Of a stretch of DNA of 64,000 bases, positions 44,379 through 64,000 are shown one piece after another. The stretch's first letter is position 1; the number at the start of each line of letters is the position of its first letter. The notes beneath the pieces are model-generated. The model saw only the letters and a program-made list of their open reading frames with translations, was not told the origin of the DNA and did not search any database. Origin of the DNA: Halichondria panicea (lineage: Eukaryota > Porifera > Demospongiae > Suberitida > Halichondriidae); the NCBI RefSeq assembly GCF_963675165.1, contig NC_087378.1, positions 6,930,073 through 6,994,072 of the forward strand, given 5' to 3'. Position numbers and translations under genes: made by a program.

Positions 44379-47300
44379 GTATTGGAGTGTGTTGTGTTGT
44401 GTTGTAATTTGATCACTTTCAACATGCATGCATGCAATCATGATCTGTTTATTTGGTACCTGCAGACATCAACGAGTGTCTCACCAGCAATGGTGACTGT
44501 GAGCAGAACTGTAACAACACTGAGGGCAGTTTCAACTGTTTCTGTAACTCCGGGTTCACTCTACACAGCAATGGATTCAACTGCAACGGTGAGATTAAAT
44601 TTTAAATGGTGTATATTATTATTATAATACTTTAAAAAGACATCAATGAGTGCTTGCCTGACAATTATGGAGACTGTGAACACACCTGTACTAATACTGA
44701 GGGAAACTTTAGCTGCTCCTGTAACACTGGCTATGAACTGGACAGCAATGGATTCAACTGCTCAGGTAAATGGATATAATTACATGACCATTTATCTTAT
44801 TACGTGTTTCTCTACAGATGTAAACGAGTGCCTCTCTGGTATTGGAGGATGTGAACACACCTGCACAAATACTGTTGGGAACTTCAGCTGCTCCTGTAAA
44901 AGTGGATACAGCCTGGACAGTAATTTAATGAACTGCTCAGGTAAGCCATGCATGCAGTGTCTGTTATCATCTGTTGATGTTCATGTATGAATTTCAGACG
45001 TTAATGAGTGCGCCACCACCAACAAAGGAGGCTGTGAGCATACCTGCACTAACACTGACGGCAGTTTCTCTTGTTCATGTGATACTGGATATCAGTTGGA
45101 CCACAACTCATTCAATTGCTCTGGTTAGAACGATAAATCCATAGTTCAGCATGATTCATTTGTTTGCTGTTTCACAGACATTGATGAGTGCTTGACTGAC
45201 AATGGAGACTGTGAGCAGAACTGTAACAACACTGAGGGTAGTTTCAACTGTTTCTGTAACTCCGGGTTCATTCTACACAGCAATAGATTCAACTGCAGCG
45301 GTGAGATTAAATTTTAAATGGTGTATATTATTATTATAATACTTTAAAAAGACATCAATGAGTGCCTAACTGACAATGGAGACTGTGAACACACGTGTTC
45401 CAACATTGAGGGAAACTTTAGCTGCTCTTGTAACACTGGCTATGAACTGGACAACAATGGATTCAACTGCTCAGGTAATCACTCATAACACTGAATATAA
45501 GTAGGGCAATGTGTAATTTATACAGACATTGATGAGTGTTCTCGCAATACGTCTAAGTGTCTGTCCAATTCTATCTGCGTCAACATTGAGGGTAATTACA
45601 CCTGCCCCTGTAATAATGGCTTTACTGGAGACGGCTTCACTGGTTGTGAAAGTAAGTTTTGTTACTATGTCACTGAACTAGGATGATTCATTCTACACAA
45701 CACTAGACATCAACGAGTGTGAAGATGGCACTCACAACTGTGACCGCAATGCCATCTGTACTGACAATGTTGGGAGCTTTGCCTGCACTTGTGTGTTTGG
45801 CTACACTGGGACAGGAGAGCAATGCGGTGAGTGTGACCTTGTGGAAACCAAGCCCAGCATGTACCTGAACTCCCCTACAGACTGCACTGATGGACAGGTG
45901 CGGCTGATGAATGGAAGTGAACCCAGTGAAGGTCAGAGAAAGGGAAGAGTTGAGATCTGCTACAACAACACCTATGGCAGTGTGTGTGATGACTTCTTCA
46001 ATGAGAATGCTGCAGCCGTTGTCTGCAATGGAACTGGTTAGTAGAATGAACGTGACAAATATGATAGAGCTACTTCCTTGTTGTTGATCATTGCTGTAGT
46101 CATCAAAAAGTTTCGTTCTTTCGTTTAGCGTTTGGGTTAATTATAGTCACTAATTAGTTGTAGCATTAATAATGGAAATACGATAATATGTATTTTCCTC
46201 GTAACTTCCTTATTGGTTGAGTTCTTAGTTTCTTTGATGTTTTACGTAACAATATCTTCTGGTGTTCATTTCAGGCTCTCCAGTTCGTGGTATTGACAGT
46301 ATATTTAGTGCTGGTTCTGGTCCCATCTTTCTGGACAATGTAGTGTGTGCTGGCACTGAGGACAACCTCTTGAGCTGCTCCCATAGCCAGATATTCCAGC
46401 ACAACTGCGACCACTCTGAAGATGTGGCTGTCGTCTGTGATGGTGAGCCTATCAGTAAATGTCATTGACTACACATTATTCATCATTCTCCTCACACACA
46501 GTCTCATGCATTGACGGCAGTGTTAGACTGAGAAACCCTGATGCTGTCTCCGAGAGCACCCTTCCAGCATACAACCTGATCAAGGATCAGGTGTCTCGTG
46601 GTGTGGTGGAGTTGTGTGTGAACGGTGACTTTGGTAGCCTCTGTGACAGTGAGTGGGACGATCAGGACGCCTCTGTGGTCTGCAGACAGCTGGGTTTCTC
46701 CCCACATGGAGCCATTCATCTTGACGGCCACTTATTCAATGGATTCGCTTCTTCAAGTGTTAGAGACGGTAGTTATGGTTGTGTTGGAACTGAAAGTGAG
46801 CTAATAAGTTGTGCTTATCAGCCAGCTGCTACTTGTGGTGGGGTTAACGTTGAAGGAGCTGCAGTAGTGTGTCAGGGTAAGTGTGTGCTTATTATGCTAT
46901 ATGCGGTATGTCACAGCTATTATTATTTGCAGATAAAACAGCAACTGTTTTCAGCAACTGTACTGATGGAGAGATTCGACTAGTGGGTGGAGCTAATGTC
47001 ACTCTCGGAGCTGTTCAAGTTTGCATGAATAATGCCTGGGGCTCAGTGTGTAATGACAGATTCGGTACCAACGATGCCACTGTGGTGTGCAGACAACTTG
47101 GCTTCTCTGTCACTGGGGCTGAGGCCTTCAGAGATGCCAGTACCAGGTTCAATATCTCAACAGGACCTGTGTTCCTAGAACGGGTCGACTGTAGAGGGTC
47201 AGAGAGCAGCGTAATGGGCTGTAGCCAGACACCCCCTGGTCTATCTCAATGTACTGCCTCCGAGATTGCTGGCGTAATCTGTATAGGTGAGTATTCAATT

Positions 47301-64000: not shown

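Follow-up and report, generated by a model that had tools for sequence, protein, structure and literature searches.

Three paralogous genes for predicted adhesion GPCRs with tandem SRCR/EGF blocks in the sponge Halichondria panicea

We found that three genes of Halichondria panicea, here called A, B and C, are likely to be paralogous genes of block-repeat adhesion GPCRs: their distal SRCR/EGF blocks would have been gained and lost in register, the number of units would set the reach and avidity of the receptor, and cleavage at the second of two GPS sites (GPS2) would free a tethered agonist. Genes A and B lie head to head in the window, the 64,000-nucleotide stretch of DNA that was analysed (contig C2:6930073-6994072 of an assembly of 131 Mb in 39 contigs), and gene C lies on contig C11. 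The features of genes A and B are collected in Table 1.

Table 1. Coordinates of the features of genes A and B, counted from the first nucleotide of the window
Feature	Position	Strand	Basis
Gene A, inverted head-to-head with gene B; spans the first identified NIDO exon through the stop after the 7TM exons	10670..40214	-	
Class-B 7TM exons and cytoplasmic tail of gene A	10670..12959	-	Equivalent part of gene C: 7tm_2 by Pfam, 6.1e-21
Gene A GPS2, HLT followed by tethered-agonist-like NFAILV	13034..13333	-	Genome-wide GPS search and reading
Gene A GPS1, HLG	16232..16446	-	Genome-wide GPS search and reading
Gene A three older, diverged blocks, six SRCR each plus EGFs	18041..33045	-	Exon chain
Gene A single distal block A1, SRCR3-EGF2-SRCR3 and first EGF	34340..37849	-	Projection, self-BLASTN
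Gene A NIDO-like exons	39057..40214	-	Exon chain; matches the NIDO region of gene B in inverted orientation
Pair of inverted ~230-bp copies (90%) between genes A and B	41324-41553 and 41797-42026	.	Self-BLASTN
Gene B N-terminal NIDO exons	43498..44369	+	Exon chain; NIDO by Pfam after joining the exons, 1.2e-42
Gene B, eight EGF exons ahead of unit 1	44466..45826	+	Self-BLASTN, EGF motif scan
Super-unit 1, SRCR3-EGF2-SRCR3-EGF11, 23 exons, 1235 aa	45881..51259	+	Exon chain, scan, projection
Super-unit 2, 1232 aa	51314..57822	+	Exon chain, scan, projection, Pfam
Super-unit 3, 1231 aa, cut inside E12	57877..64000	+	Scan, projection; complete at 64247 (continued coordinates)

The first-pass annotation had placed the starts of three units in gene B at 45881, 51314 and 57877, and the same positions were recovered by exon chaining, which took its splice models from 193 EGF exons and left the first-pass coordinates unused, as well as by searching with the SRCR exon that opens unit 2. 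In a self-BLASTN of the window the three stretches are linked by long direct matches of about 80-95%. The 23 exons of unit 2 were projected onto each block copy, and all 23 were found in order in B1, B2 and B3 (units 1-3), in agreement with the proposed succession of three SRCR, two EGF, three SRCR and 11 EGF domains; AG/GT borders and open frames of the projected exons were demanded by the search and so are not independent evidence. Pfam, run on four pieces (unit 2, two C-terminal pieces of gene C and the NIDO region of gene B), reported six SRCR stretches (PF00530, 2.6e-110) and many EGF-type stretches in unit 2. The claim that exon sizes are the same in all units holds at 21 of the 23 positions and fails at S2 (375, 369 and 363 bp in units 1, 2 and 3) and E2 (120, 117 and 120 bp); exons previously given as 168 and 192 bp measure 159 and 186 bp here, with an alternative acceptor chosen. 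Similarly, a block of ~5.4 kb describes the first period (5433 bp) and does not describe the others (6563 and 6426 bp), so the block length is not constant. Unit 3 was indeed in register at the end of the window: 10 of its 11 terminal EGF exons start inside, with E12 (63947-64072) spanning the edge and E13 (64128-64247) lying outside.

It had also been claimed that each position of the unit carries the same EGF subtype in all units. Register by index was found: in 65 of 78 comparisons the best match of an EGF in another B unit has the same index; over 2000 shuffles the number averaged 6.1 and never exceeded 19, so the register is far beyond chance. On the other hand, we rejected the idea that every position has a subtype of its own, because E5, E8 and E11 are nearly one subtype, with a mean identity within a unit of 83-84% in 11 full units. 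Twelve of the 13 misses are swaps among these three positions, and the remaining one is E6 matching E5. It follows that the 11-EGF run contains an internal repeat with a step of three, which applies to the E5/E8/E11 subtype and is not clear for E6/E9.

Most of the eight EGFs that precede unit 1 are nearest to unit positions E5/E8 to E13, and together they are perhaps the EGF tail of a truncated unit. Behind unit 3 there is a fourth block, B4 (64303-67830 in continued coordinates), which is shorter than units 1-3 and consists of six SRCRs, two EGFs and then a shorter EGF run; its divergent exons include S2, present as two exons, S5b, S6b and others. First exons were not found in the gene models, and exon chaining did not identify the first exon or signal peptide of gene B.

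Gene C has ten distal blocks, C1-C10, spaced by 5.2-7.1 kb, with two SRCRs missing from C1. In the predicted gene models the numbers of distal and older blocks are 1+3 in A, 4+3 in B and 10+3 in C. The three older blocks, located near the membrane, have identical order in the three genes (56-57 exons were matched pairwise), which indicates that the S3-E-S3-E architecture predates the divergence of the distal blocks. In the models, NIDO and EGF domains lead into blocks with six SRCRs each, and these into two GPS regions and a class-B 7TM domain. Repeats are nested within the ectodomain, where a block (S3-E2/3-S3-E6/11) is composed of triplets of SRCRs and runs of EGFs, and the blocks stand in tandem. 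SRCR totals of 24 in A, 42 in B and 76 in C, obtained after joining split rows (25, 42 and 78 rows), equal blocks of six multiplied by (1+3), (4+3) and (10+3), minus the two in C1; EGF matches scoring over 8 number 35, 77 and 148. Exon chains gave predicted ectodomains of 4,286 (A), 8,085 (B) and 14,910 aa (C). In gene A the NIDO exons add ~200 aa and the C-terminal part ~1,440 aa, and with these additions applied to B and C as well, the full proteins would have roughly 5,900, 9,700 and 16,500 aa. The donor of E8 in block C6 (within contig C11:2034001-2044000) seems to read GC, not GT, which would explain its absence from the exon chain; the projection cut this exon to 78 bp, and it was set by hand to 123 bp with the GC donor. 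Stray EGFs that the projection placed in B4, C10 and A1 (labelled E13 or E9) were left out of the intron and exon counts.

The single distal block of gene A matches unit 1 at 0.976 in S2, 0.969 in S3, 0.994 in S5b and 0.982 in the S2-S3 intron; the respective values for unit 2 are 0.907, 0.876, 0.927 and 0.786. Its E3 is closer to B4 (0.943 versus 0.902), and so are the 200 bp after E3 (0.850 versus 0.610). We regard A1 as a mosaic, since unit 1 is the best or tied best match in only 6 of 13 exons, with the other exons separated by few bases, and since E2 is unlike all B blocks (0.70-0.76). Judging from these matches, A1 is probably a block mostly like unit 1 that has been joined in register to an end like that of unit 4, as would be expected of a contraction by whole periods; the simplest reading would be that three periods were lost in register.

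Several other features of this region were seen. The cytoplasmic tail of gene A (10670-10700, minus strand) ends in ETTSL, which we take to resemble a PDZ ligand, and the tail of gene C ends in STFM. The gap between the NIDO exons of A and B is ~3.3 kb, and a relative (86%) of the inverted ~230-bp copies situated there was found upstream of gene C (contig C11:1998012-1998237); the inverted copies are possibly shared promoter-region sequence. To the left of gene A there are long ORFs at 3033-4910 (minus strand, 625 aa) and 8114-9069 (plus strand, 173 and 127 aa), and minisatellites at 7076-7320, 7382-7459 and 7728-7802 with periods of 33/51/88 bp and 20 bp.

The prediction that A, B and C are adhesion GPCRs comes from their C-terminal parts. 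In the two C-terminal pieces of gene C Pfam listed a GPS in each (4.8e-14 and 5.8e-13), along with 7tm_2 (Table 1), and no GAIN or hormone-receptor (HRM) family; the presumptive GAIN region is covered by sequence alignment to ADGRG6 and ADGRG2. In a phmmer search all 29 PDB matches of the 7TM half up to the default cut-off are adhesion GPCRs, with ADGRG2 the best (1.9e-32) and with ADGRG6 and ADGRD1 structures also matched. Of 32 PDB matches of the first GPS region, the best 21 are adhesion GPCRs (ADGRG2, 1.5e-12); the other 11 (E 0.06-0.1) are immunoglobulin constant regions and were read as chance. Between the GPS regions we observed an Ig-like stretch, below the Pfam cut-off, and, by eye, a hormone-receptor-like segment. 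A genome-wide search matched both GPS in A (contig C2:6946310 and 6943109), in B (contig C2:7015375 and 7019795) and in C (contig C11:2073645 and 2077382). GPS2 reads HLTNFAILV in all three genes; at GPS1, B and C have HLS and A has HLG. HL-T/S is known as the cleavage consensus (PMC8878244), and cleavage at GPS1 of gene A is predicted to be lost. The TM5-7 exon of A is 84% identical to that of B and 78% to that of C; this exon has 65 matches in the genome, of which those in A, B and C alone are at 78% or above, the others being at most 43%. Two more loci have paired GPS followed by a 7TM match (contig C3:3976228-3981081, minus strand, and contig C15:3873170-3878757, plus strand), and double GPS may thus be a receptor subtype in this genome.

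As for the origin of the repeats, the first-pass annotation had proposed a recent duplication of a multi-exon block. Duplication of a multi-exon genomic block is borne out: between B units, exons are 92-95% identical and introns 88-91%, the latter over 16-18 of 22 introns, with those >400 bp or of very unequal lengths left out and gaps uncounted. Homology of the introns means that whole genomic blocks were copied, and it rules out retroduplication or exon-by-exon duplication. The qualifier 'recent' had to be dropped. Ks between B units is 0.12-0.20, while for the A/B split itself it is 0.095 in the shared older ectodomain and 0.147 in the GAIN-7TM part (577 codons); for C against either A or B it is 0.24-0.29, and two B-C full-unit pairs shown give 0.27-0.38. 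Neighbouring C units, with Ks of 0.11-0.26 in SRCR exons and 0.11-0.40 in EGF exons, overlap the between-gene values. Recency also finds no support in the BLAST alignments: apart from a 3,634-bp tract of 93.3% identity that aligns C5-C6 to C8-C9 in register, none of those >93% exceeds 0.7 kb within the B or C array. Ka/Ks is 0.26-0.38 between B units and 0.14-0.38 in the full-unit pairs computed, indicating purifying selection.

In full-unit trees, C1-C9 come together in four of four segments (98-100%; C1 is absent from the second), and the partner of C5 changes from C6 in segment one (98%) to C8 in the remaining segments (82, 100 and 100%). In a tree of 15 blocks the terminal blocks B4 and C10 group (89%), B2 and B3 join C1-C9 (88%), and B1 and A1 stand apart (98%). 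The conflict among the four segments, together with the C5-C6/C8-C9 tract, points to sequence exchange between units; simple separate amplification in each gene is opposed by the C5 pairings, by the same tract, and by the placement of B2/B3 with C1-C9 and of B1/A1 apart. The grouping of C1-C9 and that of B4 with C10 fit an ancestor that had one block of internal type and one of terminal type, followed by amplification or homogenisation in each gene. On this comparative evidence, the distal blocks would have been multiplied and lost in register as whole genomic segments, exchanging sequence later.

Long similar tandem repeats are classic sites of misassembly, and one unit might have been expanded into several by the assembly. 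However, exon divergence among the B units is 5-8%, their introns vary in length and carry insertions private to one unit (700 bp for unit 2 and 702 bp for unit 3), distinct units recur in genes A and C with their own divergence, and the stretch contains no N; assembly expansion was rejected on these grounds, as a very improbable explanation. It could also be that the units are old and fixed, with gene conversion keeping them alike and with a unit number that is not labile now. Such a view agrees with the Ks values, by which the B units are not younger than the A/B split, with the mosaic trees, which show exchange, and with the joining of B2 and B3 to the C units in the 15-block tree; it is at odds with block numbers of 1, 4 and 10 among the paralogues, with the apparent loss of whole periods in register from gene A, and with the lack of two SRCRs in C1. 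We consider fixed unit numbers unlikely, and favor gain and loss of whole distal blocks in register. Copy number may, as the first-pass annotation suggested, vary between alleles or individuals; the differing block numbers of the paralogues and the apparent loss of periods from gene A would lend this indirect support.

With respect to ligand binding, the cation residues of DMBT1 were placed on the motifs CDD, LDx and HxED, which we presume to be the equivalent sites. In DMBT1 SRCR8 the dual cation site consists of D1019, D1020, D1058 and E1086 (PMC7043408). The full presumed set (D, D, D, E) was observed at SRCR positions 1 and 4 in 8 of 8 cases in B1-B4, 18 of 18 in C2-C10 and 2 of 2 in A1, and at none of positions 2, 3, 5 and 6, where some rows are short; the first SRCR of C1 is split over two rows which jointly hold the cation residues. 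Over the whole genes the full set is found in 4 of 25 (A), 10 of 42 (B) and 19 of 78 (C) SRCR rows. As only SRCRs 1 and 4 keep the presumed set, unit number should set ligand valency, each unit adding two candidate ligand sites. The N-terminal consensus of calcium-binding EGFs is present in 33 of 35 EGF matches in A, 72 of 77 in B and 137 of 148 in C; arrays of calcium-binding EGFs suit a stiff stalk, as in fibrillin.

From what is known of these families we infer how such a receptor might act. A long stalk of calcium-binding EGF and SRCR domains would extend from the cell, its unit number setting reach and avidity for repetitive ligands, which could be microbial surfaces or else matrix or neighbour cells. 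Load on the stalk would be passed on to the GPS region, where cleavage at GPS2 (HL/T) would free the tethered agonist and activate the 7TM part, and the farther-out GPS1, HL/G in A and HL/S in the other two genes, could be an additional break point. The exons are of phase 1 at both ends, so gain or loss of a unit always keeps the frame, and receptor length and the number of binding sites may be tuned by gain or loss of whole blocks. One could go further and speculate that the super-units are a currently mutable dial in giant adhesion GPCRs (one predicted at >16,000 residues), with individuals differing in unit number by in-register exchange and hence in reach and avidity, and with two serial GPS break points between stalk and 7TM; we put this forward tentatively, as a doubtful extension.

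SRCR arrays in known animals are often secreted, and the join from SRCR to GPS rests on exon chaining; the SRCR/EGF array could therefore be the gene of a secreted or single-pass DMBT1-like agglutinin, with GPS-7TM as a separate downstream gene. Still, nearly all exons that free-phase chaining gave between the EGFs and the last SRCR are of phase 1, the predicted exons leading to GPS1 follow within ~0.1-0.5 kb on the same strand in all three genes, and sponge adhesion GPCRs bearing SRCRs have been published (PMC4302439), all of which makes two separate genes improbable. Taking A, B and C as single receptor genes, one may ask about the kind of ligand. A receptor for structural adhesion or allorecognition, as opposed to microbe binding, would have its unit number set cell spacing and not avidity; the long calcium-binding EGF arrays, as seen in B, suit a rigid spacer, and most known ligands of adhesion GPCRs are cell-surface or matrix proteins (PMC8878244). 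The strict keeping of the presumed cation site at SRCRs 1 and 4 points to ligand binding by each unit, an argument compatible with either ligand type. A role in adhesion or allorecognition is in our opinion quite possible, if short of probable; the reading in which unit number sets reach and avidity is the one that we compare below with known systems.

Complement receptor 1 is a single-pass receptor, and ADGRV1/VLGR1 has one GPS. The former is similar to gene B in that a multi-module super-unit (long homologous repeats) is repeated in one receptor gene, and differs in its CCP modules (PMC5845983). The latter is also a giant adhesion GPCR (~6300 aa, PMC8878244) with a long repeat ectodomain, but this is made of Calx-beta repeats, and the B and C proteins are predicted to be longer. 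Like genes A, B and C, DMBT1/SALSA has tandem SRCR-coding blocks in one gene, where block number changes the number of binding domains; unlike them, it is secreted, with variable units of one or four SRCRs, SID spacers and CUB/ZP at the end (PMC4851238, PMC7043408). CUB and ZP were not listed by Pfam in unit 2, the two C-terminal gene C pieces and the gene B NIDO region. DMBT1 is reported to have 7 to 20 SRCR domains per molecule and a high mutation rate (PMC4851238). Its unit-number polymorphism is proven (PMC4851238, PMC7043408), whereas the block numbers given here come from paralogues of one assembly.

Among sponges, Aq712029 and Aq715659 of Amphimedon queenslandica are, like A, B and C, adhesion GPCRs with multiple N-terminal SRCR domains, unique to the knowledge of the authors who reported them; compared by description only, no NIDO, 19-domain super-units, unit-number differences or double GPS is described for them in the text consulted (PMC4302439). 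Microbial patterns elicit a response from one SRCR gene and one GPCR gene in Aplysina aerophoba (PMC6208332). A figure of sponge receptor architectures has a legend that names NIDO and GAIN among others, and a similar architecture may be drawn there (PMC8242945). In the open-licence literature an adhesion GPCR with an SRCR/EGF super-unit or a double GPS was not found among the matches listed, which does not imply absence in print.

What we describe is a known kind of receptor, the SRCR adhesion GPCR, whose form here is new and striking: it is giant and hierarchical, has 1, 4 or 10 distal blocks and carries two GPS. If the gene models hold, few GPCRs described so far would be as large as these proteins, B and C surpassing ADGRV1 in length, and one receptor would unite a recognition stalk of SRCR and EGF domains with a copy-number dial and a double GPS. 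The paralogues, with their 1, 4 and 10 distal blocks, would offer a natural series on whether an adhesion GPCR is tuned by the length of its stalk and the valency of its SRCRs, and individual-specific recognition would most obviously be sought in the unit array.
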